NCBI GenBank assembly: GCA_037833965.1
Contig: AP031356.1
Coordinates: forward strand, 15,150,501 to 15,214,500
DNA: 64,000 nucleotides
Direction of reading: 5' to 3'
DNA from: Marchantia polymorpha subsp. ruderalis
Taxonomy: Eukaryota > Streptophyta > Marchantiopsida > Marchantiales > Marchantiaceae
Shown here: in pieces, positions 22,130 through 63,380 of the stretch
Layout: each line of letters starts with the position of its first letter
Position numbering within the stretch: position 1 is the stretch's first letter
The notes under the pieces: model-generated
Told to the model about the DNA's origin: nothing
What the model saw: only the letters and a program-made list of their open reading frames with translations
The model's database searches: none
Translations under genes and position numbers: made by a program

Positions 22130-22165
22130 CGTAGTACAGTGTAGTGCTAGGTAGGACTTAGAAGG

Positions 22166-22174
22166 TATAAAATA
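22166..22174 (+). promoter_or_regulatory. LTR TATA box (E3 3' LTR)
   Basis: TATAAAATA followed by the CCAGGC/GCCTGG hairpin. F1 is inserted about 50 bases downstream, which separates this promoter from the rest of its R-U5. Confidence 0.6.
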
Positions 22175-23169
22175 GTTCCAGGCGTTTTGCCTGGGGTTCT
22201 TTCCCAAACTCAGAAGTATAGATCAGTGTAATAACCCACTAAAGGCTAAAACTGCAATATAGTGGTAGAAAGGTCGAACCCACAGGGACAGAGGAACACA
22301 CAGGGTACAAAGTGTCACGTTTTAACAGACTATTGAGGAGTTTGAATTCTCAGGCAACTGTCACTCCCAGAAATACTGCAAGTGTCCACTCGGAGCACAC
22401 TCGGAGGTCGCATAGTGCAGCGTAACACACACACACACACACACCTGAAACTACAGAAACACAACCCAGAGATCCGTTAGGACCTCTACTTCAAGATTTC
22501 AGGGGAAAGTCTCTCAAGAGTACACTCTGCGAAGCTGCGGGTAGTGACTTCCAACTCCGGCTTTTACAACACTTCCACTAGCTTGCTGCTAGTGTAGGAA
22601 ACCCGGTTTGGACTGCCTACTTCGGATCGAAGTCACTCAGACGCGGTGAACAACACTCTCAACTCACAAAACGCGCAGAGAACACAGGTCCGCACTGAAG
22701 GACTCACTGAGAAACATTCCAGTAACACAACAACAGTCTATTGAAGAGTTTGAATTCTCAGGCACTTGTCATTCCCAGAAATACTACAGGGGTTACCCTC
22801 AAGGCACCTGCTGCAGCGTAACCTGAATTTACAACCAAGGCTTACACGAAGTAGCAAAACTTCACTTTGGCATTCAGGGGAAAAATCCCAAGGAGTACAA
22901 ACAGAAAGAAACACTCGAAGGTGTAGGGGCGAAACTGTTCAAGTATCTAACTAGTCACTGGCTCTGAGCATCGGCAGTCACCCGCAGGTGCAGATCCGAA
23001 CTACTCAAGTCTCTAACCAATGTACTAGCTCTGAACATTCGGCCGAAGGCCTTCAGCTACAAAATGCGGAACGCTAAGTTGTAACTCCTCGTGCGTGGTG
23101 ACAGAACTCAAGGACACAAACACGCAAAGGAAATGGGTTCCTGATCTGCACTTCTGATGGGAAAGAACC

Positions 23170-23198
23170 CCAGGCAAAACGCCTGGAACTATTTTATA
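23170..23198 (-). promoter_or_regulatory. LTR TATA box and hairpin (F1 3' LTR)
   Basis: TATAAAATA on the minus strand at 23190-23198 and hairpin CCAGGC/GCCTGG at 23170-23186. Confidence 0.6.
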
Positions 23199-23315
23199 CC
23201 TTCTAAGTCCTACCTAGCACTACACTGCACTACGCTACACGCCTGCACGGAACCACGCTACACTACACTCCGCGGAACCTGTACTACGTCTCCTGCGCGG
23301 CGGATTGCCGCGCAC

Positions 23316-26120: not shown

Positions 26121-27616
26121 TGCGTTCCTGGGGTTCGCTCGGCCGCTCATTCTACTTCCGCACCGCCCGAGCTTCTCTCTCTCTCGGCAAACTCTAATCG
26201 CCCTCAATTCCAAATCACGCGCATTCACTTCTCCCTCAATCAACAAGAAATCTCCTGTGCGGCGACGTCGAGAATGTTTAGCAGCCAGCAGATGGATGCG
26301 CGCAGCGCGCACAAGAGATTGGAATCGCGAATTCAAGAATGGGACGTTCTCCGCCGCCCGGTCGAAGGTCATGGTCGGCTTTTGCTCGTGGAGAACGTCT
26401 CACTTGATGGCCGCGCCGGCTGTACGCTGGAACGGTCTTCGCTCTCACGCGCGGCTTCACGCTCCGCCGTCGTCGATTAAACTCTCACGCTCGAATTGGC
26501 GGATTTGAACTCCGCGAGCGTATTACCCCGCGGACATGGGGGCGTAGCGCCGAAGGCGAGTTTTCCGCCTTGCGCGGTACACTTGTTCGTATCGCCCCTC
26601 GGCCAATCCCCCTCTGCCTTGACGCGTGTGTCCGCATGTCGGACAAAAGTTCAACTCCTGCCTGTGCGCAGGCAGACTCCTCGGCGGATTCTCCGCCGGC
26701 GCGGAACTTCATCCTCCTGTGCACAGGCGCTCGCCTGTGCGCAGGCGAATTCCGTGCGTGGCGTCGCGCTGGCGCGGAAGGCGTTGACCGTGGTCAGCCG
26801 TCTCCGTCCAGTCTGCCCGTTTCTTGTCTCTTCGTCGGCGCTTCCGCCGCCGCAACTCCGTCCGTCCAAGAGCGCATCCACCCGTCCCGTCCGCATGGTC
26901 CGTACAGATTTGATTACTCTGGCGGCTCTTCCGCCGTACGCGGCGCTGCGCTGGCGCGGAAGACGCCGTACACTTTCTACCTCACAAGGCGCATTTCTAG
27001 GGCCCAAGGCGGATTTTCCGCCGACGCCGAAGCGCCTGTGCACAGGCGAACGCCTGTGCGTAGGCGGACTTCGCGCCTCCCCAAACCCTACTTCGCCTGT
27101 GCACAGGCGAAGGCCTTCGTCCGCGCATAGGACAAAACTTGATTCCCCCTTCCGCGTAGGCGGAATTCGCGCCGGTGGCGAACTCCTTCCGCCGAAGGCG
27201 ACCGTCTCCGTATCTTCCAATAGTGATAGCTCCCTAAGTCCCCATCCGTTCCAAGCGTTCTTGGACTCGTTGGAATCAGTGCGTTGAGCTCTTTCCAACG
27301 GGACCCTAACTTGATCAAGGCGCCCGAGGGTTGACCTAATTATGGAGGGTTTCCCTACAGCCGCGGACGCAACCTCCGAAGGCGGGTTTTGCGCCTTGCG
27401 TCGTAGGGGTCCTAACTGCAGAGCTCGCAAGGAGGGTGGTGCCTGTCCTTACTGCTGCACCCCAAATCCCAGATTCTACAAGATCCCTCGAGAATCCCCG
27501 CGATCTTCCGGATTCACTCCGTTTTGATGTACCGAAGGCTATTTACAATGCTGCCAGGGTACAGTTCTCCAAAAATGTTTTAATTTCCTCAAAATTGCCA
27601 AAAGTGGGGTACCACA

Positions 27617-27631
27617 TGCTCCCCTCCTCAA
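27617..27631 (-). promoter_or_regulatory. Polypurine tract of F1
   Basis: TTGAGGAGGGGAGCA on the minus strand, adjoining the 3' LTR, identical to that of E3. Confidence 0.88.
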
Positions 27632-27653
27632 TTGTGAGCGCCCACGCGAACAC

Positions 27654-30494
27654 TCACATGTGGTATTTCTTCAACCGCCACCCGTTCACTCGGGTGCCTA
27701 ACAAATCGCCGGCCAGGTCCGCAAGTTGGATGGATCCATTCGGGAAGACTTCGACAACCCTGTAAGGTCCCATCCATCTTAGGTGCAGTTTGCCTGGGAA
27801 TCTGGCATGCCTGCTGTCGTAGAGCAATGCCAAATCACCCGCCTGCAGGAGTACAGGTTTGATCTTTTTATAGTATCTCTCCTTTCGGCGGAGCTGGATT
27901 TTCCTGGTGCGATCTTCGGCGTCTCGTCTCCTCTCATCCAGCAGCGTGACCTCCTGTAACCTGTAGAGCTGACTCTCCTCTGCGCCCATCCTCTGCAAAT
28001 CCAACGTTCGTTGGGTGGGTACTTCAAATTCGATCGGGAGGATCGGGTGTTGCCCATACACCAGAAAGTATGGTGTCTGTTTGGTCGTGATCTTCTCAGC
28101 TGTCCGGTACGCCCATAGAGCGGCTGCTAGCTTCGTATCCCAGTCGTGAGCGTGATTCACCGTGACCTTGAGTAGTATTTTACACAGCAGACCATTGGAC
28201 TTCTCCGTCAGTCCATTCGCCTTGGGATTGTATGGAGTAGTCTTCCGGTGCTTGATGTGGAAATACCGTGTCAGATCTTCGATGATCTGATGCAGAAAAT
28301 GCGTGCCCCAGTCGCTGACTAGCTCTAAGGGACATCCGTAGCGTGTGATGATCGACTCAAACAAGAAGGCTGCCACTGTGGCAGCATCATCCCTTCTGGT
28401 GGCCCTGGCCTCTACCATTTTGGTGGCGTAGTCCGTTGCTACCAGAATGTAGCGCCTTCGTGTGCTTCTAGTCACTGGTTGTATCGGCCCTACAAAGTCA
28501 ATGCCCCACTTTTCGAAAGGTGCTAGAGGCATGATGGGAGTCAGGGGCCAGCGTGTTGTAGGCGTCGGTCTCCCCGTCCTCTGGCAACTGTCGCACTTGC
28601 GGATGTAATCGAGAACATCCTTAAACATGGTCGGCCACCAATACCCCGCATTTAGAATCTTTGTGACCGTGTTCCTGGTGGCATAGTGTCCACCCGCCTC
28701 CTCTGTATGCATCGCACTCACTATTCTTGGTACCTCTGATTCCTCCAGGCATCTGCATAAGCGCTCATCTGCCATCTTCTTGAACAAAACCCCCTGCTGG
28801 AGTTGGTACGGGCCTGCCTTATGAATAAAGACAGTTTGCTGTTCCAAATCCATGCCTACGGGACACTGGAGGGTTAGCAGATATCGATACAGGTCGGCAT
28901 AGCGGGACTCATGCCCTGCCGACAACTGAAATAACTCTTCATCTGGAAAATCGTCCACCAATTCCTCCTCTGTCGGCTGGGTCCATAATCGGGACAAGTA
29001 ATCCGCATTTTCGTGGTGCACCCCTTTCCTGGTCTGGACTGTGTAGGTGAACTCTTGTAGTAACAACACCCACCTGGCGATCCGACCGGATAGGTCGGCT
29101 TTCTTGACTAGGTGTTGCAATGCGTAGTGGTCCACATGGAACACAAATTCGTAGCAGATTAGGTAGTGACGGAACTTTTTACAGGAGTACACCATCCCCA
29201 ACGCTTCTCTCTCCGTCGTGGTGTACTTCCGCTCTGCTAGAGACAGCTGTCGGCTCGCGAAGTAGATCGGGTAGTCCTTTTTGTTGTCATCCTTTTGACT
29301 CAGTACTACACCGATGGCGAATGCAGATGTGTCAACGTAAACATGGAATGGTCGATTCCAGTCTGGACTCCTTAGTACGGGAGCAGTCGTGAGTTTCGCT
29401 TTAAGAGCCTCAAATGCTGACTGCTGGTTCGCACCCCAGGCATAAGGCTCGTCCTTCTTCAACAGCTTGGTCAGGTCCGCCGCCAGTATTGCATACAGGT
29501 GTATGAATCTTTGGTAGTAGCCCACATGACCCAGGAATGCTCGCAGCTCTCTTAGATTCGTGGGTGGCTCAAGCTCGAGTATAACCTTGACCTTCTCGAT
29601 GTCCACCGCAATGCCGTCTGCCGAGACCCGATGACCCAACAAGATCCCACTAGTCATAAAGAAAAAGCACTTCTCGGGATGCAATGATAAACTGCTCTGT
29701 CTACATTTATCGAAGGTCTGCTTCAAGTGACTTAGGTGTTCAGACCGCTTCCCAAAGACACAGAAGTCATCTATGAATATTTCCAGGAACTTCCTCAGTT
29801 GTTCCTGGAAGATATTGGTCATCATCCGTTGAAAGGTGGCAGGCGCGTTGCACAGACCGAAGGGCATCTTGTGGTATGCGTAAGTTCCCCAGTCGGTCGT
29901 GAACGTAGTTTTATCCTTGTCCTGTTCCCGGATAGACACCTGATTGTAACCTGAGAACCCGTCCAGGAAGCTATAGCATTCATGTCCTGCGACTTGGTCT
30001 AGAATGGCATCCGTGAAGGGCAACGGGTGATGATCCTTGCGTGTTGGTGCATTCAACTTCCGGAAATCCTGACACACTCGTATCTTACCCGTCAACTTCT
30101 TGGGTACGATAACAATCGGCGACACCCACTCACTGCTGAGCACTGGGTAAATAATACCAGCACTCAAGTACTTATCTATCTCCTCCTTAACTAGCAAGGA
30201 GTATTTTGGGTTGAGGCGATACTGGCGCTGTCGTATGGGTACTGAGTCGTCCAGTAAATCGATGCGGTGTTCCCCATACCGTGCAGGTATCCCCTTCATG
30301 TCTTCGATCTTCCAGGCGAAGACGTCGACATAATGGCTAAGGAATGCCTGTACTTTCCTTAGCTCGTCTCCTCTCACTGTGCTTGATACCTTCAAGCACT
30401 TGTCGGGACTGAGTTGTACTTCGTGACAGTCACTAGGGTCGACAATGCCCTCGGTGTGACTCGTCTCACTCCTTCCCAGTCCCACCGTTAATTG
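27654..30494 (-). CDS. pol: F1 pol: reverse transcriptase, RNase H, integrase
   Basis: In the same frame as gag, directly after the gag UAG. No ATG lies near the start, so expression by readthrough as a Gag-Pol fusion is likely. About 946 residues. RT about 90-260 with the catalytic box FIDDF at about 240 (most relatives have Y or F before xDD); RNase H about 370-500; integrase zinc region HHCC about 600-640 (KCDSCQ); DD35E core at about 661, 725 and 760; GPY-like motif near the end (LRWMGPYRV). No chromodomain. Compared with E3 pol it has SDWGTHF in place of SDRGTHF next to the second catalytic Asp; whether this affects activity cannot be told. It copies the element RNA into DNA and inserts it in the nucleus. 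Confidence 0.95.
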   Translation of the reverse strand, partial: QLTVGLGRSETSHTEGIVDPSDCHEVQLSPDKCLKVSSTVRGDELRKVQAFLSHYVDVFAWKIEDMKGIPARYGEHRIDLLDDSVPIRQRQYRLNPKYSLLVKEEIDKYLSAGIIYPVLSSEWVSPIVIVPKKLTGKIRVCQDFRKLNAPTRKDHHPLPFTDAILDQVAGHECYSFLDGFSGYNQVSIREQDKDKTTFTTDWGTYAYHKMPFGLCNAPATFQRMMTNIFQEQLRKFLEIFIDDFCVFGKRSEHLSHLKQTFDKCRQSSLSLHPEKCFFFMTSGILLGHRVSADGIAVDIEKVKVILELEPPTNLRELRAFLGHVGYYQRFIHLYAILAADLTKLLKKDEPYAWGANQQSAFEALKAKLTTAPVLRSPDWNRPFHVYVDTSAFAIGVVLSQKDDNKKDYPIYFASRQLSLAERKYTTTEREALGMVYSCKKFRHYLICYEFVFHVDHYALQHLVKKADLSGRIARWVLLLQEFTYTVQTRKGVHHENADYLSRLWTQPTEEELVDDFPDEELFQLSAGHESRYADLYRYLLTLQCPVGMDLEQQTVFIHKAGPYQLQQGVLFKKMADERLCRCLEESEVPRIVSAMHTEEAGGHYATRNTVTKILNAGYWWPTMFKDVLDYIRKCDSCQRTGRPTPTTRWPLTPIMPLAPFEKWGIDFVGPIQPVTRSTRRRYILVATDYATKMVEARATRRDDAATVAAFLFESIITRYGCPLELVSDWGTHFLHQIIEDLTRYFHIKHRKTTPYNPKANGLTEKSNGLLCKILLKVTVNHAHDWDTKLAAALWAYRTAEKITTKQTPYFLVYGQHPILPIEFEVPTQRTLDLQRMGAEESQLYRLQEVTLLDERRRDAEDRTRKIQLRRKERYYKKIKPVLLQAGDLALLYDSRHARFPGKLHLRWMGPYRVVEVFPNGSIQLADLAGDLLGTRVNGWRLKKYHM

Positions 30495-30500
30495 CTATTC
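30483..30500 (-). promoter_or_regulatory. gag-pol leaky stop, UAG CAA UUA
   Basis: Gag ends GAC GAA TAG and continues CAA TTA ACG in the same frame into pol. UAG-CAA-UUA is the known tobacco-mosaic-virus-type readthrough context (UAG CAR YYA). Same frame, one stop, the precise context and the absence of a pol ATG together support programmed readthrough as the means of making Gag-Pol. Confidence 0.8.
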
Positions 30501-33329
30501 GTCTTCCGGCTGAATAGCTTCCGGCTCTTCTTCTTCTCCCACCGAACAGCAGGCAACGAATCCCACGAAATAATCGGATTCGGTACCACTGGAATCCGAT
30601 CGCGCGGTCGACTCACTGTCCCCGCCCGATGTGTAACCTGCACTTGTCGATGGGGTCTCTCCTTCGTGTCTGACCCTATTCCAGGGCACCGTAATGGTCT
30701 TGGTCGGTTCCGAAGGATGGGGAAACTTAAGGCGATGCCTTCGCCAATCACATCTGACTTGTGCGCCATATAGCCATGGTCGCCCGAGCAGAACGTCATA
30801 GCCCTGCTTCATCATCGGTTGAAGGATGATATACGTCAACCGAAAGTCCGCACCACCGATGATTGTTTTGACATTGCGCAGCATACCTGCAGGCATTCTC
30901 CGCGTCTGATCCGCTAATCTCAACACACGCTTCGAGGGTTCGTATTGACTGAACCCCAAAGCTCTCGCGGTATCCTCCGTCATTATGTTGACTCCTGACC
31001 CAGAGTCGATTGGTACCCTGCGTACACAACACCCTGCTATTTCCACATCGATCTCTGGTGGCCCTTGGTCTTCGCTCTCCACTTGATATACTTGAGAGGA
31101 TGTGGATGCGCGCGGCTTCCGCGGACGCCGTAGCGAAAGCATCAACATTCTCCGATACGTCTTATTGTCCTTCAGGAGCTGCTTGAACGTGATGTTCACT
31201 TTCCGACTCCCGAGATCTTCGACCAAGTCATAGTGGGCGCGTTGGGTCGCCGGGGTCGGCGGCGACGCTCTGCGAGGTTCCAAGGTGGCTGCCAACTTCG
31301 CCCCAAGGAAGGATGGCAAGTCTGGCCGCTGTGGGTCCTTTTGAGTGCGGATCGCTTCCTTCAACAGGTTGGTTACCTCGTTGCGGATATCCGGAGCATA
31401 GTCCCGTTTCAGCAAGCGTACTGGCTCATCCTCGACTGCTGACTGGGGGCGCACTGCTGGTGCTTCTCGCGTAACCGAAGACTTCCGTGCAGGTCGCAAG
31501 TCGGACTTGCTGGATGTCTTCTCCTTCCTTTTCCCCGTCCGGTCGTCGGTTCTCCGTTCGTGCTTGCGTGTGTCACGCTCTTGCTCCTTCGATTTCTTGG
31601 AACTACGAGTTTCGACCCGTGCGCACATAACCTCTTCCGTCGGCCATTCTTCGTCTTCGTCCTCCCCGTCTGAACCTACTTCGACCTGGTTAACTTGGAC
31701 GTCCTCCTTGGCAGGAGGGTTCACAAATCGTACCGCTGGCCGAGGGACTGGTGGCTGATCACACTCTGGCGCAGTATGCCCGGTCTTCTTGCAATTACTA
31801 CATGTCGAAACATAATCGTTTCGCCTTTTTGGATGGGGACACTGCGGTGAGAAGTGTCCAACTTCCCCGCAGTTATAACAAGCTCGCGGTGGCGGTGGGT
31901 CAAACGTCCCTGGAGGTGCTCTCCGCCTCACGGGTACTGTAGTGGCCCGATCCACCGGATGATATCGTGGGACTTGCATTGCTGAAACTGCAGTAGGGGT
32001 GGGAACCGACTGGACGGCGTAGGCTGTCTCTTCGCTAGCCTCTCCATAATACTGGGGGTGCTCTCCATAGTACGGTTGTGCCCACTCTACAGCGTTGACT
32101 GGATATGACGGACGGGTGGTAAGGCACTCGGTGTTTGCATGTCCCACCGCCCCGCACGTAGTACACCATAAGTTCGCTCGCACTCTCCCGGGTGATTTTC
32201 GGCGATCATGCCCGCCTACCACTTGAACCTTGAGATCGGCGAAGTCCTTCACAAGGGTCTCCATCTTCGAGGCTATGTCTCCCGGCGCTCTGTCCGTAGT
32301 CACTCGTCGGGTGCCCTTCTTCTTCGCTGCCCCATGCTTCTTCCTCTTTTTCTCCTCCTCCGACGATGAGGTTTCCTCTTCTTCGGATGAGGAACGGTTC
32401 TCGTCCGAAGACGATTCCTCCGATGACGGAGTTGTACCTCTACGTCGTCTTCGCCCTCCCTTCGGTTTTCGCTCCTTTGACTCCCGTCTCTCTCTCCCTC
32501 TTCGGTTGAGAGTGGAAGTTTCGAAGGCTTCTGCCGATGCAATCACATCCTCAATAGTGTCGCACTTGCTGCGTCGGCAAAAAGTCTCCATCTCCCGAGT
32601 TAAACCGGTCACGTACCAATCCACAGCTTGTTGTACCGAGAAAGGGGACCCTGGTCCTGTTTTCGGTATTCTGTCAAGGAGGTCCAGAAATCTCTCAGTG
32701 TAGTCACGCAGACTCTCCTTCTTCTCTCGCTGCAAATTACGTAACTTTGTCAATACCCGACTGTCGTAGCCGAGCTCGCGGAAGCGGCGAAGGAACTTCT
32801 CCTTCAGCTGGGCCCATGTTGTCAACCCAGTCGGATCGATGCTCTCGTGATTGTACCAACTCCTCGCTTTCTTCCGCAGAAGGCTTGGAAAGATCCTTAG
32901 TCGGTCGTCGTCTGCGATCTCGCGATTGGCAATAGACACCGATTCGAACAACTTGATGTATGAATCTGCATCGTCGTCATCCCCACTCCCTTTATACTTT
33001 GGGTAGGAATGTTTAGTAATCGGCTGAGGTAGCCGCACATTGGCTTGTCCGTCCGCCATCGGTGTGTCTGTCGACGGTTCTCGGGCGGTCGTTTCTAAAT
33101 CCCGAGGCGGGTCCGTGCAAGGAATATCTAGTAGAACTGTAAGCACCAAGTTTGGTTCCAAGTCGCCGGGGGTAGGTTCCCCAAGGATGTCGGCCGAACT
33201 AGGCTTAGGTACTCTTTTTGGTGTTTTCTTGTTTTGACGCCGTGTCTCTTCCACGGCCTTCTCTGAATCTCGTCGGAACCTGCGGACAGCTCTAGCACTT
33301 AGGTTGCTCCCGCTAGCCCCAGTCGACAT
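30495..33329 (-). CDS. gag: F1 gag with aspartic protease (944 aa)
   Basis: Capsid-like retrotransposon Gag domain about residues 100-230 (ARSWYNHE, TTWAQLKEKFLRRF). Lys/Glu/Ser-rich charged region about 270-350. Three CX2CX4HX4C zinc knuckles at about 387 (CTTCGAVGHANTEC), 483 (CYNCGEVGHFSPQC) and 510 (CSNCKKTGHTAPEC); three is more than the one or two usual in plant Ty3/Gypsy Gag. Aspartic protease near 776 with active site IDSGSG (DSG in place of the common DTG). An acidic tail follows to the UAG. Gag packages the RNA and builds the particle; protease would process Gag-Pol. Because protease lies before the UAG it is made at Gag level, unlike elements with protease in Pol. Confidence 0.94.
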   Translation of the reverse strand: MSTGASGSNLSARAVRRFRRDSEKAVEETRRQNKKTPKRVPKPSSADILGEPTPGDLEPNLVLTVLLDIPCTDPPRDLETTAREPSTDTPMADGQANVRLPQPITKHSYPKYKGSGDDDDADSYIKLFESVSIANREIADDDRLRIFPSLLRKKARSWYNHESIDPTGLTTWAQLKEKFLRRFRELGYDSRVLTKLRNLQREKKESLRDYTERFLDLLDRIPKTGPGSPFSVQQAVDWYVTGLTREMETFCRRSKCDTIEDVIASAEAFETSTLNRRGRERRESKERKPKGGRRRRRGTTPSSEESSSDENRSSSEEEETSSSEEEKKRKKHGAAKKKGTRRVTTDRAPGDIASKMETLVKDFADLKVQVVGGHDRRKSPGRVRANLWCTTCGAVGHANTECLTTRPSYPVNAVEWAQPYYGEHPQYYGEASEETAYAVQSVPTPTAVSAMQVPRYHPVDRATTVPVRRRAPPGTFDPPPPRACYNCGEVGHFSPQCPHPKRRNDYVSTCSNCKKTGHTAPECDQPPVPRPAVRFVNPPAKEDVQVNQVEVGSDGEDEDEEWPTEEVMCARVETRSSKKSKEQERDTRKHERRTDDRTGKRKEKTSSKSDLRPARKSSVTREAPAVRPQSAVEDEPVRLLKRDYAPDIRNEVTNLLKEAIRTQKDPQRPDLPSFLGAKLAATLEPRRASPPTPATQRAHYDLVEDLGSRKVNITFKQLLKDNKTYRRMLMLSLRRPRKPRASTSSQVYQVESEDQGPPEIDVEIAGCCVRRVPIDSGSGVNIMTEDTARALGFSQYEPSKRVLRLADQTRRMPAGMLRNVKTIIGGADFRLTYIILQPMMKQGYDVLLGRPWLYGAQVRCDWRRHRLKFPHPSEPTKTITVPWNRVRHEGETPSTSAGYTSGGDSESTARSDSSGTESDYFVGFVACCSVGEEEEPEAIQPEDE

Positions 33330-33340: not shown

Positions 33341-33375
33341 GGCTGCTTGTAAAAACCCCGGTGTTGACGCAACTG

Positions 33376-33393
33376 TCCCCGGCAGCGGCGCCA
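33376..33393 (-). other. Primer-binding site, tRNA-Asp type
   Basis: TGGCGCCGCTGCCGGGGA on the minus strand matches the complement of the 3' end of plant tRNA-Asp(GUC), with one difference (C for T) from the usual TGGCGCCGTTGCCGGGGA. It is 22 bases from the LTR end, which is unusually far; the spacer contains a GAAG/CTTC mini-stem and is nearly the same in B2. Confidence 0.85.
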
Positions 33394-34349
33394 AAAAGAA
33401 GTTGTCGGCTTCTTATGTAATAACCCACTAAAGGCTAAAACTGCAATATAGTGGTAGAAAGGTCGAACCCACAGGGACAGAGGAACACACAGGGTACAAA
33501 GTGTCACGTTTTAACAGACTATTGAGGAGTTTGAATTCTCAGGCAACTGTCACTCCCAGAAATACTGCAAGTGTCCACTCGGAGCGCACTCGGAGGTCGC
33601 ACAGTGCAGCGTAACACACACACCTGAAACTACAGAAACACAACCCAGAGATCCGTTAGGACCTCTACTTCAAGATTTCAGGGGGAAAGTCTCTCAAGAG
33701 TACACTCTGCGAAGCTGCGGGTAGTGACTTCCAACTCCGGCTTTTACAACACTTCCACTAGCTTGCTGCTAGTGTAGGAAACCCGGTTTGGACTGACTAC
33801 TTCGGATCGAAGTCACTCAGACGCGGTGAACAACACTCTCAACTCACAAAACGCGCAGAGAACACAGGTCCGCACTGAAGGACTCACTGAGAAACATTCC
33901 AGTAACACAACAACAATCTATTGAAGAGTTTGAATTCTCAGGCACTTGTCATTCCCAGAAATACTACAGGGGTTACCCTCAAGGCACCTGCTGCAGCGTA
34001 ACCTGAATTTACAACCAAGGCTTACACGAAGTAGCAAAACTTCACTTTGGCATTCAGGGGAAAAATCCCAAGGAGTACAAACAGAAAGAAACACTCGAAG
34101 GTGTAGGGGCGAAACTGTTCAAGTATCTAACTAGTCACTGGCTCTGAGCATCGGCAGTCACCCGCAGGTGCAGATCCGAACTACTCAAGTCTCTAACCAA
34201 TGTACTAGCTCTGAACATTCGGCCGAAGGCCTTCAGCTACAAAATGCGGAACGCTAAGTTGTAACTCCTCGTGCGTGGTGACAGAACTCAAGGACACAAA
34301 CACGCAAAGGAAATGGGTTCCTGATCTGCACTTCTGATGGGAAAGAACC

Positions 34350-34378
34350 CCAGGCAAAACGCCTGGAACTATTTTATA
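34350..34378 (-). promoter_or_regulatory. LTR TATA box and hairpin (F1 5' LTR)
   Basis: TATAAAATA at 34370-34378 and CCAGGC/GCCTGG hairpin at 34350-34366 on the minus strand. This copy is placed to drive the F1 genomic RNA. Confidence 0.62.
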
Positions 34379-34495
34379 CCTTCTAAGTCCTACCTAGCAC
34401 TACACTGCACTACGCTACACGCCTGCACGGAACCACGCTACACTACACTCCGCGGAACCTGTACTACGTCTCCTGCGCGGCGGATTGCCGCGCAC

Positions 34496-37285
34496 TTACT
34501 CCCTACCCTGCCAATCTTCCGTTTGACTGCGCAGTCCCAAACGCTGCAATGCCGCGGACACCTCCACTTCGAGGGCGGACATGGTATCCTGTGCCTTCGA
34601 CAGAAAAGCATCGAGCTTCTTTGCTACCTTCCGTCGACTCCTACTGTCGCCTGACAACAACCCGGCTGCGCGCAATTCAAACTCACGCAGTGTGAGTTTC
34701 TCCTGCGCCTTCACTTCCCAGTGGGCATAGCCCTTGAGACAGTGGGCGACACGCCTCGCCGTCTCCACCTTCGTGCGATCCGCCTCCTTCCTGCGATCCT
34801 CTTCAATTATCACTAATTGCGATTCGGCCTCAGCACGTTGCGCTCTCAATTCGCCACACTCTGACTGTAACCTGCGGATTAACTCCTCATCCGCCTGCCG
34901 TGCGAGCTGACATTGTTCCAACAACCGCGTCTGTCGCACGAGCTCCTCTGACAAAATCCGATTCTGGGCCTGCTCAGAAATGAGTGCTTCCTTGACCTTC
35001 ACCTGCTCCTTGGTGAGCTCGTCCAGTTTCTCATCCTTCACCTTCTCGGAGTGCTTGTAGAATTTCTGATTAAGTTTATACTGACCCCACAAGCATGCAT
35101 GCTTCTCCTTCAATTCCCTCAACTCTTGGTCCACTCTAGCTAACAGCTTGCTGGTGTGGACTTTAGTGCGAGTCCGCCTGCGCACTAACTCGATGTAAGA
35201 TCCCGGCTGAAGTGGGTCGGCGTATTTATCGACCTTACCATCCAAGTACCTCAGCAACGGAATCACCTGCTCAGAGAGCGCCGCCGCCGGCGCTCCAACA
35301 ATTTCCTCCTCCTCCTCGGTGTCTTCTGCTCCTGACATTTCTTCCGTGGAGCCTCCGTCGTCATCATCCGAGTGGAGAATTTTGGTCGCCATTGATTGCG
35401 TCGGCGACTGCCCCGAGTGGGGCTGCACGTCGTCGACGTGTGCTGCCTGCGAAGGCACGGCTGCAGCCTCGCTGCTCTTCGCCAAAATGTCTAAGGCGGT
35501 AGACGAATGTGCCCGTGCGGCATCCCCGCCGCTCGCTTGTTGGTCGTCTACCGTGTCCTCTCTGCCGCCGACGCCCGCCGCCGTAGGCGATCGAGCGGAG
35601 GGTGGCTGCGCGGGGTTTGATTGCGCATCGCGCATCGAAATTTCATCCCGCGGACAGTCACTCCGCTCCTCCGTCTGTTGCTGCTCCCTTGATCGGTCCG
35701 TGGGGGCTGTGCTCGGCCTGTGCGCAGGCGCAAATGCCGGCGCCTTGTCCGCCGCAGGCGTAGCGCCGCGGACATCCATCGCCAAAGGCGACATGGCCGG
35801 GGGCCGCTCGCCCGATGTCCCTTGGCCTATAGGTCCTACCGCCGAAGGCGCATCTATCGGCGGTCTACCCGCCGATGGTGCGGCCTCCGCACGCTCCCTG
35901 CTCGTATCTCCTCGGCTCGAAGGCCCTGGCGCCGAAGGCGCAAATTGCGGCGCGTGGTGCGCCGGAGGGTCTGGCCCCGAGGGTCGGTGTCTCGTAGGCG
36001 GTTCTTCCGCCGGCTCTTTCCCCTTCCTACGTTGGAACGGGGGTGATTCTTGCCTGTGCACAGGCGGCACGTGTGGAGGTGTCCTGTGCACAGGCGAGCG
36101 CCTGTGCACAGGCGGACTACTCCTTCCCACGCGTAAGCGTAGATCCACGTCCACTTGTGATCGCCTGTCCGCGGAGGCTCGTCCGTCCGCGGAGTCTCGT
36201 CTGTGCGCAAACGGAACATCTGTCCGCGACGCACGTGGTAACTCCGGAGGCCCTTGGCCCGTAGGCGGCCTCTCTCCCGTCGAGGTTGCAGCGTGGCCCG
36301 TTGCTCCTGCGGTCGTCCGCGCTTCCTCATGCTTCTCTGGCGACGCACTTCCTTTCTCCGTCGCAATCGTCGCCGTGTCCGCACTGTCGGCTGGTAACAC
36401 CAGTCTGCGTGCCTTCTGCTTCGGCCGGCTGTATGACTCGTACAGCGGCCGCGGTCGAATGGGAGCAGAGGGTTCTTGATGCTGCTCCTCTTCGGACTCT
36501 TCTCTCCATCGCCGCTTCCGCGGCACTCGTGCTGCAGGAGTGTTTCTCCCTTCGTCCCTCCGCCTTGATGGGGTAGAAGTCGGTGACTCCTCTGCATCAG
36601 TGTCGACCTCATTCTCCCGCACATACTTCCCGGGATGGTCGACGGACAATGGCGGAAAATGCTCAAGCTCCGCCGCTGTCAAACAATTCCGCTGTCGATA
36701 AAAATTGATGAGGAAAGGAGAAAGATGGTTTAGAGTTCCCCCCTTCTCCTCAAAAGCGTGCTGTCGCATCACCCTGTGCAGGATGCTCGCCCAGTGAATT
36801 GGAGTTCCCTCGATGACGCACTCCACAAAAGAGACCTGCCACAATGTGATGTAGCAGGCGCGGTGTGGCTGCAGCAATTGCATCAGCGCCGCGGACAAAG
36901 TCCGGCGAAATCGATCCTTGTAATCACGGGTCCTGTACCCATTCTTGGTAGACCTCCCGGTCTTGAACAGCTCCACAAATTGCGCCTCTTCTTGCTTGGT
37001 CACCTTGATGCTCTCACTGTCGAAAAGGAGATGCCCTGGCATGCCAGCACATCTTCCCAACGCCTGCGCCCAATCTTGGACTGTCCACCGATCAACATGC
37101 GGACGCAATCCGCGCGAGGGTGGTCCCTGTGGCTCTAGCCACTCGCGCACCATATTCGCACAGATGTAGTTCCATCCCCATAGCAAGAAATCGAGCTTTC
37201 TTGCTATTAAGCGCTCCTCGAAAGCGCGCAGCCCGTTTTGTGGTAGGCGAAGTGGCACCATCCGCAATCTGCTCGGTCTCGTCAT
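34496..37285 (-). CDS. LTR-resident protein in F1 5' LTR (929 aa)
   Basis: Same gene as in the F1 3' LTR, from the conserved ATG (37283-37285) to TAA (34496-34498); open upstream to 37537 (1013 aa). Differs by about a dozen residue changes and one missing SPVHR unit. In this LTR it lies upstream of the LTR TATA box, so it needs its own promoter or readthrough from outside; the U3 start and palindrome cluster (37690-38781) are the only element sequence before it. Confidence 0.85.
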   Translation of the reverse strand: MTRPSRLRMVPLRLPQNGLRAFEERLIARKLDFLLWGWNYICANMVREWLEPQGPPSRGLRPHVDRWTVQDWAQALGRCAGMPGHLLFDSESIKVTKQEEAQFVELFKTGRSTKNGYRTRDYKDRFRRTLSAALMQLLQPHRACYITLWQVSFVECVIEGTPIHWASILHRVMRQHAFEEKGGTLNHLSPFLINFYRQRNCLTAAELEHFPPLSVDHPGKYVRENEVDTDAEESPTSTPSRRRDEGRNTPAARVPRKRRWREESEEEQHQEPSAPIRPRPLYESYSRPKQKARRLVLPADSADTATIATEKGSASPEKHEEARTTAGATGHAATSTGERPPTGQGPPELPRASRTDVPFAHRRDSADGRASADRRSQVDVDLRLRVGRSSPPVHRRSPVHRTPPHVPPVHRQESPPFQRRKGKEPAEEPPTRHRPSGPDPPAHHAPQFAPSAPGPSSRGDTSRERAEAAPSAGRPPIDAPSAVGPIGQGTSGERPPAMSPLAMDVRGATPAADKAPAFAPAHRPSTAPTDRSREQQQTEERSDCPRDEISMRDAQSNPAQPPSARSPTAAGVGGREDTVDDQQASGGDAARAHSSTALDILAKSSEAAAVPSQAAHVDDVQPHSGQSPTQSMATKILHSDDDDGGSTEEMSGAEDTEEEEEIVGAPAAALSEQVIPLLRYLDGKVDKYADPLQPGSYIELVRRRTRTKVHTSKLLARVDQELRELKEKHACLWGQYKLNQKFYKHSEKVKDEKLDELTKEQVKVKEALISEQAQNRILSEELVRQTRLLEQCQLARQADEELIRRLQSECGELRAQRAEAESQLVIIEEDRRKEADRTKVETARRVAHCLKGYAHWEVKAQEKLTLREFELRAAGLLSGDSRSRRKVAKKLDAFLSKAQDTMSALEVEVSAALQRLGLRSQTEDWQGRE

Positions 37286-38786
37286 TGCGTTCCTGGGGTT
37301 CGCTCGGCCGCTCATTCTACTTCCGCACCGCCCGAGCTTCTCTCTCTCTCGGCAAACTCTAATCGCCCTCAATTCCAAATCACGCGCATTCACTTCTCCC
37401 TCAATCAACAAGAAATCTCCTGTGCGGCAACGTCGAGAATGTTTAGCAGCCAGCAGATGGATGCGCGCAGCGCGCACAAGAGATTGGAATCGCGAATTCA
37501 AGAATGGGACGTTCTCCGCCGCCCGGTCGAAGGTCATGGTCGGCTTTTGCTCGTGGAGAACGTCTCACTTGATGGCCGCGCCGGCTGTACGCTGGAACGG
37601 TCTTCGCTCTCACGCGCGGCTTCACGCTCCGCCGTCGTCGATTAAACTCTCACGCTCGAATTGGCGGATTTGAACTCCGCGAGCGTATTACCCCGCGGAC
37701 ATGGGGGCGTAGCGCCGAAGGCGAGTTTTCCGCCTTGCGCGGTACACTTGTTCGTATCGCCCCTCGGCCAATCCCCCTCTGCCTTGACGCGTGTGTCCGC
37801 ATGTCGGACAAAAGTTCAACTCCTGCCTGTGCGCAGGCAGACTCCTCGGCGGATTCTCCGCCGGCGCGGAACTTCATCCTCCTGTGCACAGGCGCTCGCC
37901 TGTGCGCAGGCGAATTCCGTGCGTGGCGTCGCGCTGGCGCGGAAGGCGTTGACCGTGGTCAGCCGTCTCCGTCCAGTCTGCCCGTTTCTTGTCTCTTCGT
38001 CGGCGCTTCCGCCGCCGCAACTCCGTCCGTCCAAGAGCGCATCCACCCGTCCCGTCCGCATGGTCCGTACAGATTTGATTACTCTGGCGGCTCTTCCGCC
38101 GTACGCGGCGCTGCGCTGGCGCGGAAGACGCCGTACACTTTCTACCTCACAAGGCGCATTTCTAGGGCCCAAGGCGGATTTTCCGCCGACGCCGAAGCGC
38201 CTGTGCACAGGCGAACGCCTGTGCGTAGGCGGACTTCGCGCCTCCCCAAACCCTACTTCGCCTGTGCACAGGCGAAGGCCTTCGTCCGCGCATAGGACAA
38301 AACTTGATTCCCCCTTCCGCGTAGGCGGAATTCGCGCCGGTGGCGAACTCCTTCCGCCGAAGGCGACCGTCTCCGTATCTTCCAATAGTGATAGCTCCCT
38401 AAGTCCCCATCCGTTCCAAGCGTTCTTGGACTCGTTGGAATCAGTGCGTCGAGCTCTTTCCAACGGGACCCTAACTTGGTCAAGGCGCCCGAGGGTTGAC
38501 CTAATTATGGAGGGTTTCCCTACAGCCGCGGACGCAACCTCCGAAGGCGGGTTTTGCGCCTTGCGTCGTAGGGGTCCTAACTGCAGAGCTCGCAAGGAGG
38601 GTGGTGCCTGTCCTTACTGCTGCACCCCAAATCCCAGATTCTACAAGATCCCTCGAGAATCCCCGCGATCTTCCGGATTCACTCCGTTTTGATGTACCGA
38701 AGGCTATTTACAATGCTGCCAGGGTACAGTTCTCCAAAAATGTTTTAATTTCCTCAAAATTGCCAAAAGTGGGGTACCACAATCAG

Positions 38787-40259: not shown

Positions 40260-41754
40260 TGTGGTACCCCACTTTTGGCAATTTTGAGGAAATTAAAACA
40301 TTTTTGAAAAACTGTACCCTGGCAGCATTGTAAATAGCCTTCGGTACATCAAAACAGAGTGAATCCGGAAGATCGCGGGGATTCTCGAGGGATCTTGTAG
40401 AATCTGGGATTTGGGGTGCCGCAGTAAGGACAGGCACCACCCTCCCTGCGAGCTCCGCAGTTAGGATCTCTACGGCGCAAGGCGCAAAACCCGCCTTCGG
40501 AGGTTGCGTCCGCGGCTGTAGGGAAACCCCCGTAATTAGGTAAACCCTCGGGCGCCTTGACCAAATTAGGGTCCCGTTGGAAAGAGCTCGACGCGCTGAT
40601 TCCAACGAGCCCAAGAACGCTTGGAACGGACGAGGACTTAGGGAGTTATCGCTACTGGAAGGAACGGAGGCGGTCGCCTACGGCGGAAGGAGTTCGCCAC
40701 CGGCGCGAATTCCGCCTACGCGGAAGAGGGGATCAAGTTTTGTCCTATGCGCGGGCGAAGGCGTTCGCCTGTGCACAGGCGAAGTAGGGTTAGGGAAGGC
40801 GCGAAGTCCGCCTACGCACAGGCGCTTGCCTGTGCACAGGCACTTCGGCGTCGGCGGAAAATCCGCCTTGGGCCCTAGAAATGCGCCTTGTGAGGTAGAA
40901 AGTGTACGGCGCCTTCCGCGCCAGCGCAGCGCCACGTACGTCGGAAGAGCCGCCAGAGTAATCCAATCGGTACGGACCGGGCGGACGACACGGGTGGATG
41001 CGCTCTTGGACGGACGGAGTTGCGGCGGCGGAAGCGCCGACGGAGAGACAAGGAACGGACAGTCTGGACGGAGACGGCTGACCACGGTCAACGCATTCCG
41101 CGCCAGCGCAGCGCCGCGGACGGAATTCGCCTGCGCACAGGCGAACGCCTGTGCACAGGAGGATGGAGTTCCGCACCGGCGGAGGATCCGCCGAGGCTCC
41201 TGCCTGCGCACAGGCAGGAGTTGAATTTTTGTCCGACATGCGGACGCACGCGTCAAGGCAGAAGGAGATTGGCCGAGGGGCGGTACGAACAAGTGTACCG
41301 CGCAAGGCGGAAAACTCGCCTTCGGCGCTACGCCCCCATGTCCACAGGGTGACACGCTCGCGGAGTTCAAATCCGCCAATTCGAGCGTGAGAGTTTAATC
41401 GACGACGGCGGAGCGTGAAGCCGCGCGTGAGAGCGAAGACCGTTCCAGCGTACAGCCGGCGCGGCCATCAAGTGAGACGTTCTTCACGACCAAGAGCCGA
41501 CCATGACCTTCGACCGGGCGGCGGAGAACGTCCCATTCTTGAATTCGCGATTCCAATCTCTTGTGCGCGCTGCGCGCATCCATCTGCTGGCTGCGGACCA
41601 TTCTCGACGTCGTCACACAGGAGATTTCTTGTTGATTGAGGGAGAAGTGAGTGCGCGTGATTTGGAATTGAGAGCGATTAGAGTTTGCCGAGAGAGAAAG
41701 AAGCGCGGGCAGTGCGGAAGTAGAATGAGCGGGCGAGCGAACCCCAGGAACGCG

Positions 41755-44640
41755 ATGACGAGACCGAGCAGATTGCGGATGGTGCCACTTCGCCTACCGC
41801 AGAACGGGCTGCGCGCTTTCGAAGAGCGCTTAATAGCAAGAAAGCTCGATTTCTTGCTATGGGGATGGAATTACATCTGTGCGAATATGGTGCGCGAGTG
41901 GCTAGAGCCACAGGGACCACCCTCGCGCGGATTGCGTCCGCATGTTGATCGGTGGACAGTCCAAGATTGGGCGCAGGCGTTGGGAAGATGTGCTGGCATG
42001 CCAGGGCATCTCCTTTTCGACAGTGAGAGCATCAAGGTGACCAAGCAAGAAGAGGCGCAATTTGTGGAGCTGTTCAAGACCGGGAGGTCTACCAAGAATG
42101 GGTACAGGACCCGTGATTACAAGGATCGATTTCGCCGGACTTTGTCCGCGGCGCTGATGCAATTACTGCAGCCGCACCGCGCCTGCTACATCACATTGTG
42201 GCAGGTCTCTTTTGTGGAGTGCGTCATCGAGGGAACTCCAATTCACTGGGCGAGCATCCTGCACAGGGTGATGCGACAGCACGCGTTTGAGGAGAAGGGG
42301 GGAACTCTAAACCATCTTTCTCCTTTCCTCATCAATTTTTATCGACAGCGGAATTGTTTGACAGCGGCGGAGCTTGAACATTTTCCGCCATTGTCCATCG
42401 ACCATCCCGGGAAGTATGTGCGGGAGAACGAGGTCGATACTGACGCAGTGGAGTCACCGACTTCTACCCCATCAAGACGGAGGGACGAAGGGAGACACAC
42501 TCCTGCAGCGCGAGTGCCGCGGAAGCGGCGATGGAGGGAAGAGTCCGAAGAGGAGCAGCATCAAGAACCCTCTGCTCCCATTCGACCGCGGCCGCTGTGC
42601 GAGCCATACAGCCGGCCGAAGCAGAAGGCACGCAGACTGGTGTTACCAGCTGACAGTGCAGACACGGCGACGATTGCGACGGAGATAGGAAGTGCGTCGC
42701 CAGAGAGGCGAGAGGAAGCGCGGACGACCGCAGGAGCGACGGGCCACGCTGCAACCTCGTCGGGAGAGAGGCCGCCTACGGGCCAAGGGCCTCCGGAGTT
42801 ACCACGTGCGATGCGGACAGATGTTCCGTTTGCGCACATGCGAACCTCCGCGGACGGACGAGCCTCCGCGGACCGGCGAACACAAGTGGACGTGGACCTA
42901 CGCTTACGCGTGGGAAGGAGCAGTCCGCCTGTGCACAGGCGCTCGCCTGTGCACAGGTCGCCTGTGAACAGGACACCTCCGCACGTGCCGCCTGTGCACA
43001 GGCAAGAATCACCCCCGTTCCAACGTAGGAAGGGGAAGGAGCCGGCGGAAGAACCGCCTACGAGACACCGGCCCTCGGGGCCAGACCCTCCGGCGCACCA
43101 CGCGCCGCAATTTGCGCCTTCGGCGCCAGGGCCTTCAAGCCGAGGAGATACGAGCAGAGAGCGTGCGGAGGCCGCACCATCGGCGGGAAGTCCGCCGATA
43201 GATGCGCCTTCGGCGGTAGGGCCTATAGGCCAAGGAACATCGGGCGTGCGGCCCCCGGCCATGTCGCCTTCGGCGATAGATGTCCGCGGCGCTACGCCTG
43301 CGGCGAACAAGGCGCCGGCAAATGCGCCTGCGCACGGGCCGAGCACAGCCCCCACGGACCGATCAAGGGAGCAGCAGACGGAGGAGCGGAGTGACTGTCC
43401 GCGGGATGAAATCTCGATGCGCGATGCGCAATCCAACCCCGCGCAGCCACCCTCCGCTCAATCGCCTTCAGCGACGGACGACGGCGACAGAGAGAACGCG
43501 GTAGGCAATCAACAAGCGAGCGACGAGGATGCCGCTCGGGTACATTCGCCTTCCGCCTTAGACATTTTGGCGACGAGCAGCGAGGCTGCAGCCGTGCCTT
43601 CGCAGGCAGCACACGTCGAGGACGTGCAGCCCCACTCGGGGAAGTCGCCGACACAATCAATGGCGACTGAAATTCTCCACTTGGATGATGACGACGGAGG
43701 CTCCACGGAAGAAATGTCAGGAGCAGAAGACACCGAGGAGGAGGAGGAGGAAATTGTTGGAGCGCCGGCGGCGGCGCTCTCTGAGCAGGTGATTCCGTTG
43801 CTGCGGTACTTGGATCGCAAGGTCGATAAATACGCCGACCCACTCCAGCCGGGATCTTATATCGAGTTAGTGCGCAGGCGGACTCGCACTAAAGTCCACA
43901 CCAGCAAGCTATTAGCTAGAGTGGACCAGGAGTTGAGGGACTTGAAGGAGAAGCATGAGTGCTTGTGGGGACAGTACAAGCTTAATCAGAAATTCTACAA
44001 GCACTCCGAGAAGATGAAGGATGAGAAACTGGGCGAGCTCACCAAGGAGCAGGTGAAGGTCAAGGAAGCACTCAACTCTGAGCAGGCCCAGAATCGGATT
44101 TTGTCAGAGGAGCTCGTGCGACAGACGAGGTTGTTGGAACAATGTCAGCTCACACGGCAGGCGGATGAAGAATTAATCCGCAGTTTGCAGTCAGAGTGCG
44201 GCGAATTGAGAGCGCAACGTGCTGAAGCCGAATCGCAATTAGTGACGATTGAAGAGGATCGCAGGAAGGAGGCGGATCGCACGAAGGTAGAGACGGCGAG
44301 GCGAGTCGCCCACTGTCTCAAGGGCTACGCCCACTGGGAAGTGAAGGCGCAGGAGAAACTCACACTGCGTGAGTTTGAATTGCGCGCAGCCGGGTTGTTG
44401 TCAGGCGACAGTAGGAGTCGGCGGAAGGTAGCGAAGAAGCTCGAAGCCTTTCTGTCGAAGGCACAGGATACCATGTCCGCCCTCGAGGGGGAGGTGTCCG
44501 CGGCGTTGCAGCGGTTGGGACTGCGTAGTCGAGCGGAAGAGTGGCAGGGTAGGGAGTTAGTGCGCGGCAGTCGGCCGCGCAGGAGACGTAGTACAGGTTC
44601 CGCGGAGTGTAGTGTAGCGTGGTTCCGTGCAGGCGTGTAG
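41755..44640 (+). CDS. LTR-resident protein in solo LTR S3, intact (961 aa)
   Basis: Open from the conserved ATG at 41755 (and upstream to 41503, 1045 aa) to the full-length stop. The conserved ATG is preferred because family B starts at the same point (AACGC-ATG, then -LR--PLR-PQ-GLRAF) while upstream residues are not shared. Approximate parts: N-terminal domain 1-240; NLS-like cluster near 250; variable linker 260-640 with PVHR array; acidic stretch 640-670; SEQVIPLLRYLDRK at about 677; coiled coil 715-850; C-terminal block 850-935; basic tail RRRRSTGSAECS. No signal peptide, membrane span or zinc motif, so env is unlikely. Gag-like, nuclear or regulatory roles are all possible; function unknown. 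Confidence 0.88.
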   Translation: MTRPSRLRMVPLRLPQNGLRAFEERLIARKLDFLLWGWNYICANMVREWLEPQGPPSRGLRPHVDRWTVQDWAQALGRCAGMPGHLLFDSESIKVTKQEEAQFVELFKTGRSTKNGYRTRDYKDRFRRTLSAALMQLLQPHRACYITLWQVSFVECVIEGTPIHWASILHRVMRQHAFEEKGGTLNHLSPFLINFYRQRNCLTAAELEHFPPLSIDHPGKYVRENEVDTDAVESPTSTPSRRRDEGRHTPAARVPRKRRWREESEEEQHQEPSAPIRPRPLCEPYSRPKQKARRLVLPADSADTATIATEIGSASPERREEARTTAGATGHAATSSGERPPTGQGPPELPRAMRTDVPFAHMRTSADGRASADRRTQVDVDLRLRVGRSSPPVHRRSPVHRSPVNRTPPHVPPVHRQESPPFQRRKGKEPAEEPPTRHRPSGPDPPAHHAPQFAPSAPGPSSRGDTSRERAEAAPSAGSPPIDAPSAVGPIGQGTSGVRPPAMSPSAIDVRGATPAANKAPANAPAHGPSTAPTDRSREQQTEERSDCPRDEISMRDAQSNPAQPPSAQSPSATDDGDRENAVGNQQASDEDAARVHSPSALDILATSSEAAAVPSQAAHVEDVQPHSGKSPTQSMATEILHLDDDDGGSTEEMSGAEDTEEEEEEIVGAPAAALSEQVIPLLRYLDRKVDKYADPLQPGSYIELVRRRTRTKVHTSKLLARVDQELRDLKEKHECLWGQYKLNQKFYKHSEKMKDEKLGELTKEQVKVKEALNSEQAQNRILSEELVRQTRLLEQCQLTRQADEELIRSLQSECGELRAQRAEAESQLVTIEEDRRKEADRTKVETARRVAHCLKGYAHWEVKAQEKLTLREFELRAAGLLSGDSRSRRKVAKKLEAFLSKAQDTMSALEGEVSAALQRLGLRSRAEEWQGRELVRGSRPRRRRSTGSAECSVAWFRAGV
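42926..43007 (+). repeat. Coding palindrome array in S3
   Basis: CCTGTGCACAGG units encoding PVHR/SPVHR; one unit has a single change (CCTGTGAACAGG, PVNR), which breaks its palindrome while keeping the frame. Confidence 0.8.
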
Positions 44641-44676
44641 CGTAGTGCAGTGTAGTGCTAGGTAGGACTTAGAAGG

Positions 44677-44705
44677 TATAAAATAGTTCCAGGCGTTTTG
44701 CCTGG
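44677..44705 (+). promoter_or_regulatory. LTR TATA box and hairpin (S3)
   Basis: TATAAAATA at 44677-44685 and CCAGGC/GCCTGG hairpin just after it. Confidence 0.6.
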
Positions 44706-45653
44706 GGTTCTTTCCCATCAGAAGTGCAGATCAGGAACCCATTTCCTTTGCGTGTTTGTGTCCTTGAGTTCTGTCACCACGCACGAGGAGTTACAACTTA
44801 GCGTTCCGCATTTTGTAGCTGAAGGCCTGCGGCCGAATGTTCAGAGCTAGTCCATTGGTTAGAGACTTGAGTAGTTCGGATCTGCACCTGCGGGTGACTG
44901 CCGATGCTCAGAGCCAGTGACTAGTTAGATACTTGAACAGTTTCGCCCCTACACCTTCGAGTGTTTCTTTCTGATTGTACTCCTTTGGGATTTTTCCCCT
45001 GAATGCCAAAGTGAAGTTTTGTTACTTCGTGTAAGCCTTGGTGGTAAATTCAGGTTACGCTGCAGCAGGTGCTTTGAGGGTAACCCCTGTAGTATTTCTG
45101 GGAATGACAAGTGCCTGAGAATTCAAACTCTTCAATAGTCTGTTGTTGTGTTACTGGAATGTTTCTCAGTGAGTCCTTCAGTGCGGACCTGTGTTCTCTG
45201 CGCGTTCTGTGAGTTGAGAGTGTTGTTCACCGCGTCTGAGTGACTTCGATCCGAAGTAGGTAGTCCAAACCGGGTTTCCTACACTAGCAGCAAGCTAGTG
45301 GAAGTGTTGTAAAAGCCGGAGTTGGAAGTCACTGCCCGCAGCTTTGCCGAGTGTGCTCGTGAGAGACTTTCCCCCTGAAATCTTGAAGTAGAGGTCCTAA
45401 CGGATCTCTGGGTTGTGTTTTTGTAGTTTCAGGTGTGTGTGTGTGTGTGTTACGCTGCACTGTGCGACCTCCGAGTGCGCTCCGAGCGGACACTTGCAGT
45501 ATTTCTGGGAGTGACAGTTGCCTGAGAATTCAAACTCCTCAATAGTCTGTTAAAACGTGACACTTTGTACCCTGTGTGTTCCTCTGTCCCTGTGGGTTCG
45601 ACCTTTCTACCACTATATTGCAGTTTTAGCCTTTAGTGGGTTATTACAAAGGC

Positions 45654-62656: not shown

Positions 62657-62689
62657 GATAGCGTAGTGCTAGTTAGGATCTTTTGAGAG

Positions 62690-62696
62690 TATAAAG
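62690..62696 (+). promoter_or_regulatory. LTR TATA box (B2)
   Basis: TATAAAG followed by the hairpin CAAGGC-GTTTT-GCCTTG. As a 5' LTR copy it would drive the B2 genomic RNA. Confidence 0.6.
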
Positions 62697-63358: not shown

Positions 63359-63380
63359 AGGTGTGTGTGTGTGTGTGTGT
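63359..63380 (+). repeat. GT microsatellite in U5 (B2)
   Basis: About ten GT repeats after TTTCAG, the same site as in family A LTRs. Confidence 0.8.

Follow-up and report, generated by a model that had tools for sequence, protein, structure and literature searches.

Can a gene of about 1000 codons reside wholly inside the long terminal repeat (LTR) of a plant retrotransposon? The question is raised by a 64,000-nucleotide stretch of the liverwort Marchantia polymorpha subsp. ruderalis (contig AP031356.1, positions 15,150,501 to 15,214,500, forward strand), the whole of which is referred to here as the window. On its minus strand, from 38781 to 22227, lies a Ty3/gypsy retrotransposon, element A, whose 5.4-kb LTRs each contain a long open reading frame (ORF); further A-type copies (B, C and D) and a second family, X, occur in the same window. 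A first-pass annotation had claimed that the ORF lies entirely inside the LTR, the limits of which it took to be set by target site duplications (TSDs), a primer binding site (PBS) and a polypurine tract (PPT). Both claims were borne out, as all of these signals were located, the LTR ends are exact, and the ORF spans 1013 codons in one LTR of element A and 1018 in the other. We consider it highly probable that the evidence as a whole is best explained by a selected gene in the U3 (unique 3') region of the LTRs, expressed from the element and encoding a helper protein. The boundaries, the position of the gene, its conservation, its presence in two deeply separated families and its retention in solo LTRs were all observed directly.

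Element A consists of a 5' LTR of 5366 bp, an internal region of 5799 bp and a 3' LTR of 5390 bp, and its two LTRs are 99.1% identical over an alignment of 5391 columns. The 5' LTR is bounded exactly by TGTGGTACCCC...GGTTATTACA at 33416-38781 with TG..CA ends, and both LTRs start with TGTGGTACC and end with TTATTACA. The PBS matches a primer tRNA which we take to be of the tRNA-Asp type. The ORF (34496-37537) runs in the sense direction, that of gag-pol, wholly within the 5' LTR.
33416..38781, minus strand: 5' LTR of element A (TG...CA), 5366 bp
22227..27616, minus strand: 3' LTR of element A, 5390 bp, 99.1% identical to the 5' LTR
38782..38786, minus strand: TSD CTGAT, upstream of the 5' LTR, with its partner copy at 22222-22226
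33394..33415, minus strand: 22-nt spacer from the LTR end to the PBS, with a small hairpin AAGAAG/CTTCTT (pairing by eye)
33377..33393 (33393-33377), minus strand: PBS TGGCGCCGCTGCCGGGG, after the spacer
27617..27629 (27629-27617), minus strand: PPT GAGGAGGGGAGCA, preceding the 3' LTR
34496..37285, minus strand: conserved part of the LTR gene, Met85 to stop, comprising an N-terminal domain (codons 85-310), a low-complexity middle (311-700) and a long-helix C-terminus (701-1013)
37286..37537, minus strand: codons 1-84 of the mechanical ORF, weakly constrained and probably 5' untranslated
23316..26372, minus strand: the same gene in the 3' LTR, 1018 aa, wholly within the LTR

Comparison of copies demonstrates that this ORF is a real gene under selection. 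The ratio of nonsynonymous to synonymous divergence (dN/dS) between the two LTRs of element A is 0.82 (5 synonymous and 13 other changes), in line with neutral decay within one insertion, whereas copy A gives 0.19-0.42 over all aligned codons against the other insertions in the window. When 11 copies were compared with A, the ratio was 0.50 for codons 1-84, 0.048 for codons 85-310, 0.55 for codons 311-700 and 0.17 for codons 701-1013, and it rose to 1.31 and 1.59 in the frames shifted by +1 and +2. These copies, none of which was picked by protein similarity, are nine of the ten loci L041-L050 (L041, which is cut, was left out) plus window copies C and D; since all were compared with copy A, the 11 values are not independent. 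It is the low ratio between insertions, together with values of at least 1.3 in the shifted frames and 0.82 between the LTRs of element A, that identifies a gene. An alignment of 21 distinct LTRs points the same way, with 16, 14 and 48 common variable sites at the first, second and third codon positions and with 6 indel events in the 3-kb ORF (four of them multiples of 3) versus 28 in 2.3 kb of flanks. Protein similarity was the basis for picking 17 of these LTRs, and window copies A-D make up the rest; L010 (window copy B itself) and L014 (a duplicate of L012) were dropped.

The conserved protein probably starts at Met85, giving a length of about 930-960 aa. This start is suggested by codons 1-84 lacking a clear codon-position pattern (10/9/12 changes by position, versus 11/7/40 in codons 85-310, both counted while two duplicate rows were still in the alignment) and by 8 of 26 matching proteins (M. 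polymorpha gene models or unnamed) whose own first residue aligns to Met85; P0001 was left out of that comparison, and P0002, P0005, P0017 and P0024 begin further in. At the other end, 13 of 23 examined copies have 1035-1046 codons and 8 are shorter (326-905), while an earlier stop is common to window copies A and B. Both protein ends are conserved in family X and in M. polymorpha, to which 27 of the 29 listed homologues belong.

The ORF was said to be present in all full LTRs. Within the window this holds for A, B and C, in which the A-type ORF is unbroken, but not for D, where it stops after codon 809, nor for the copies near 5368-7769 and 11325-14435, where it is split.
40260..45648, plus strand: LTR copy C, with an ORF at 41503-44640 (1045 aa)
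17743..22226, resuming at 38782 and ending at 39702, plus strand: older LTR copy D, preceded by pol and split by element A downstream of its ORF
Across the genome, 32 of 45 scored matches to the LTR protein have no stop, a sample biased by having been picked by protein similarity and including the window's own copies. Among 12 copies picked by LTR-end similarity alone (ten, plus L039 and L040, apparently both LTRs of one element), 9 are open over 972-1050 codons, the lowest value reflecting a frame cut by the edge of the fetched piece, and 3 are broken. Young copies thus mostly keep the ORF, which was one of the checks that the first-pass annotation had proposed.

Another such check concerned whether the 5.4-kb repeats behave as LTRs at other loci, and both TSD and PBS linkage were present there. 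Among the 30 copies inspected, 13 proved to be solo LTRs flanked by identical 5-bp TSDs (12 independent ones, L012 and L014 being one duplicated locus). Six others come after a PPT and one comes before a PBS, and the remaining 10 are either truncated or left unclassified; the window's own copies account for two of the PPT-preceded copies and for the PBS-followed one. The ten copies picked by LTR end comprise 4 solo LTRs with a TSD, 3 after a PPT, 1 before a PBS and 2 unclassified. Genome-wide counts of exact motifs gave 5566 LTR ends, 1136 PPT/LTR junctions and 1119 LTR/PBS junctions, with controls at 0, although these motifs are of unequal length and the LTR ends include those of truncated copies. 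On these counts lone LTRs outnumber full elements, at a rough three per full element. On C1 and C2, an exact-motif PPT junction lies 5762-5794 bp downstream of 42 of 80 PBS junctions, and the identity of the repeats as LTRs is supported at other loci also. Many insertions are nested: A- or X-family sequence occurs in a flank of 15 of the 20 full LTRs tested, or 14 without L030, whose sole such flank is its own internal region (L009 and L010 are one insertion). At C2:31345316-31384681, four PPT and four PBS junctions recur at a constant step of 11,184 bp, which looks like a tandem chain of elements with common LTRs.

Family X displays the same layout.
58743..63616, plus strand: LTR of family X, followed by its PBS; the LTR gene runs from Met at 60101 to the stop at 62656
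Its LTR protein is 49% identical to that of A over 790 codons (58% in the N-terminal domain), and its pol is 91% identical over 667 codons. Separate histories of LTR and pol through module swapping, which these unequal identities might suggest, are unsupported, as synonymous sites are saturated between A and X in both (proportion of synonymous differences 0.85 and 0.75-0.79). None of 51 scored X matches has a stop, and 48 of them form 24 same-strand pairs, 19 of which are spaced 10,660-10,684 bp apart; both scores are identical in 19 of the 24. These pairs answer to the earlier proposal that genomic LTR pairs with matching ORFs be sought. Four pairs read at their junctions have LTR ends, PBS and PPT as in A, three of them with a TSD (AGCAT, TATCT and GGACG). 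In the fourth, no TSD was seen and the 3' LTR extends 22 nt to the PBS edge. X elements are young, and since X keeps the LTR gene, the paired LTRs, the PBS and the PPT, the sequences indicate that the layout predates the split between A and X. The spacer of X likewise contains a hairpin, AAGGAG/CTTCTT (pairing by eye). After the LTR of L038, as in X element E2, only the 22-nt spacer up to the PBS edge follows, without a TSD, which would fit the insertion of a cDNA end that had escaped trimming. A search with M. polymorpha protein P0008 yielded 82 scored candidates, most of them with stops and the best matching it at 62-89%. They represent a third group of relatives of the LTR ORF, older than the others and largely broken.

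The signals around the gene bear on how it might be expressed.
34371..34378, minus strand: TATA box TATAAAAT, identical in 21 of 21 distinct aligned A-type LTRs, marking the end of U3
33416..34345, minus strand: putative R (repeat) and U5 (unique 5') regions, about 0.93 kb, with about 70-71% nucleotide identity between A and X
33882..33887, minus strand: candidate 5' splice site GTGAGT, with GTRAGT in 20 of 21 distinct LTRs
The TATA counterpart in family X is TATAAAGT. The distance from stop to TATA box is 36 nt in copy C, 33 nt in X and 117 nt in A, where the ORF ends early, and in none of A, C and X was a TATA motif found ahead of the ORF. Because the ORF lies between the LTR start and the TATA box in all three, the gene sits in U3 in the sense direction, a position like that of sag in mouse mammary tumour virus (MMTV), with transcription presumably starting just past the TATA box. 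At the place corresponding to the candidate donor, X has GTAAGT, the sole GTRAGT of its LTR, and in element A another GTGAGT lies 40 nt downstream of the candidate. A long T tract and TGCAG open the X LTR (58743, plus strand) and resemble a 3' splice site right at the beginning of U3, where A (38781, minus strand) offers no more than a weaker AG.

In the scheme that we propose, the TATA box just past the gene would be the main promoter, and the genomic RNA would read R-U5-PBS-gag-pro-pol-PPT-U3(gene)-R, with the gene present once, near the 3' end. Since the PPT precedes the gene, reverse transcription would copy it into both LTRs. Two routes to the protein are conceivable. One is a spliced subgenomic RNA whose candidate donor lies in R/U5 and whose acceptor would immediately precede Met85; the other is transcription from a TATA-less promoter within the initial 1.2 kb of the LTR, and such a promoter would work in solo LTRs too.

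Analysis of the LTR protein suggests an intracellular role. The N-terminal domain is basic (isoelectric point 9.6-9.7) and matches no Pfam family, the middle part is 45-46% P/S/T/A, and the AlphaFold model of the C-terminus (mean predicted local distance difference test score, pLDDT, 81; predicted template modelling score 0.34) contains one 166-residue helix, presumably a coiled coil, with pLDDT above 90 in 11 of about 17 ten-residue blocks. No membrane segment was detected with a simple 19-residue Kyte-Doolittle window (maximum 1.14-1.22), and an envelope identity was rejected for want of a hydrophobic segment. Structure prediction, which had been proposed together with profile searches, gave the C-terminal helix; the N-terminal model was unusable and no Pfam family at E<=10 was common to the members searched (P0001-P0005 and copy C; 20 aligned members). 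Matches of single members to CENP-K and Extensin_1 look like coiled-coil or low-complexity matches, and a PDB sequence search with the LTR ORF gave nothing at E<=1. The basic domain, low-complexity middle, long helix and lack of a membrane segment suggest, as the likeliest reading, an oligomeric protein that works inside the cell to help the element and is not an envelope; it might handle RNA or particles, take part in integration or help the element to escape silencing.

Other explanations must be set beside a selected U3 gene expressed from the element. A chance open frame, amplified along with G+C-rich LTR DNA, might be imagined from the window's G+C content of 0.55 and from long antisense frames that also occur within the LTR, yet the constraint on codons 85-310 relative to the shifted frames, the distribution of variable sites and indels and the conserved protein ends all oppose it; the codon pattern in copies not chosen for protein similarity refutes it, and we regard it as hardly conceivable. 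Scarcely less improbable is that the 5.4-kb repeats are gene-bearing units, not LTRs, that flank gag-pol by accident. Most copies do stand alone, as the motif counts indicate, but PBS and PPT adjoin the repeat at about 1100 places each, lone and paired copies have the same ends, lone ones carry TSDs, and the spacing of pairs is constant. That the extra ORF is a displaced form of the env-like or plant-mobile-domain/Transposase_28 ORFs of Tat/Athila/Ogre elements is unlikely. It shares the sense and place relative to pol of sense extra ORFs, and its layout of a globular end, a low-complexity middle and a helical end may resemble that of such proteins; against this, none of the 20 aligned members has a Pfam match to such a domain at E<=10, no membrane segment was detected, and the N-terminal model is too poor for comparison.

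A more serious contender, to which we incline a little less than to its opposite, is that the gene forms a unit separate from the genomic RNA, transcribed from a TATA-less promoter of its own within the initial 1.2 kb of each LTR, making solo LTRs a large set of potential source genes that act in trans. The open frame kept in many solo LTRs, the 1.2 kb of LTR upstream and the lack of a strong conserved acceptor before the ORF speak for it, but the missing upstream TATA motif speaks against it, and intact solo copies may just be young. Several observations also weigh against the explanation favoured here. Two of the six ORF indel events have lengths not divisible by 3; X has a good candidate acceptor before Met85, that of A being weak; a scanned leader from the LTR start looks unlikely given 8 upstream ATGs in A (before the mechanical ORF) and 19 in X (before the start Met), where about 11 and 15 are expected; the depletion of ATGs in the R/U5 leader is not significant (41 and 57 of 300 shuffles were as low); and the N-terminal model reached a pLDDT of just 44.9.

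The internal region of element A has the order gag-PR-RT-RH-INT (protease, reverse transcriptase, RNase H, integrase), which with its LTRs, TSD, PBS and PPT agrees with Ty3/gypsy.
30495..33329, minus strand: gag-pro ORF, 944 aa, with Retrotrans_gag, zinc knuckles and an aspartic protease (Pfam match just below the curated cut-off)
27654..30485, minus strand: pol ORF, 943 aa, with reverse transcriptase, RNase H and integrase
30489..30497, minus strand: UAG CAA UUA, joining gag-pro to pol in the same frame, a candidate leaky stop
In family X the in-frame junction is UAG CAA CUA (L067:85-93), and both fit UAG-CAR-YYA, which we take to be a leaky-stop motif. Retention of this type of junction despite saturated synonymous sites suggests programmed readthrough. 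An Rfam scan of 22000-39000 at gathering thresholds gave zero matches.

For a gene inside the LTR, reverse transcription is itself a means of duplication; such a gene is spared when solo LTRs form and is present in very many copies, and the element is very abundant in the liverwort genome. The layout changes both the capacity of a solo LTR and the selection on the gene, of which only the 3' U3 copy is transmitted in genomic RNA. It is possible, if rather doubtful, that a liverwort retrotransposon clade moved an essential trans-acting gene into U3, an independent sag-like layout in plants that leaves two gene copies in each insertion and a complete gene unit in each solo LTR, and that the protein, made from solo LTRs too, acts population-wide, for example in anti-silencing or integration steering. 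Element A offers an example, open to testing and in a tractable liverwort genus, of very strong constraint on an accessory gene of a plant retrotransposon.

Among known systems, the kinship to Tat/Athila elements implied by the first-pass annotation was not established. Neither the additional RNase H of Tat (PF13456 in pol) nor a chromodomain after integrase, as in chromoviruses, is among the Pfam matches at E<=1, and of the named relatives of pol the best come from the liverwort Riccia. The Athila ORF-1 domain PF03078 is not among the matches either, which does not exclude Athila membership because just 16% of Athila elements carry it (PMC6317226). The Ogre/Retand domains PF10536 (plant mobile domain) and PF04195 (Transposase_28) are likewise not among the matches, although remote homology is possible. 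The sense extra ORFs of plants (aORF-3S / eORF-3'F, env-like; Bagy2, Athila, SIRE) also lie downstream of pol, and splicing is reported for barley Bagy2 (review PMC7264820). Those ORFs lie between pol and the 3' LTR, however, whereas the gene of element A lies after the PPT, and so in both LTRs, and its protein lacks the membrane segment by which env-like ORFs are recognised. Retand resembles element A in having an extra ORF beside pol, but its Transposase_28 ORF (PF04195) is antisense and between pol and the 3' LTR (PMC11963269), while that of element A is sense, in the LTR and without a PF04195 match. Ty3/gypsy elements without the additional RNase H are reported from both surveyed Marchantia genomes, with no mention of an LTR gene in the portion of that survey at hand. 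In keeping with the annotation, the literature searched, which lay largely outside subscription journals and was accessible in part, yielded no described plant family that has a gene within its LTR; in the passages seen, "LTR ORF" denotes an ORF of an LTR element (PMC12037069), the phrase is "non-LTR ORF" (PMC4016481), or it refers to protein domains of LTR elements (PMC13195028).

The LTR-gene layout is best known from the mouse retrovirus MMTV, to which the annotation had likened this locus. Homology to sag is not supported, as the protein of element A matches no Pfam family and has a long helix at its C-terminus, and element A, unlike MMTV, is a plant Ty3/gypsy element in which no env was found. 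The likeness in position stands: sag is a sense ORF inside the U3 of the LTR, and the gene of element A occupies the same place.
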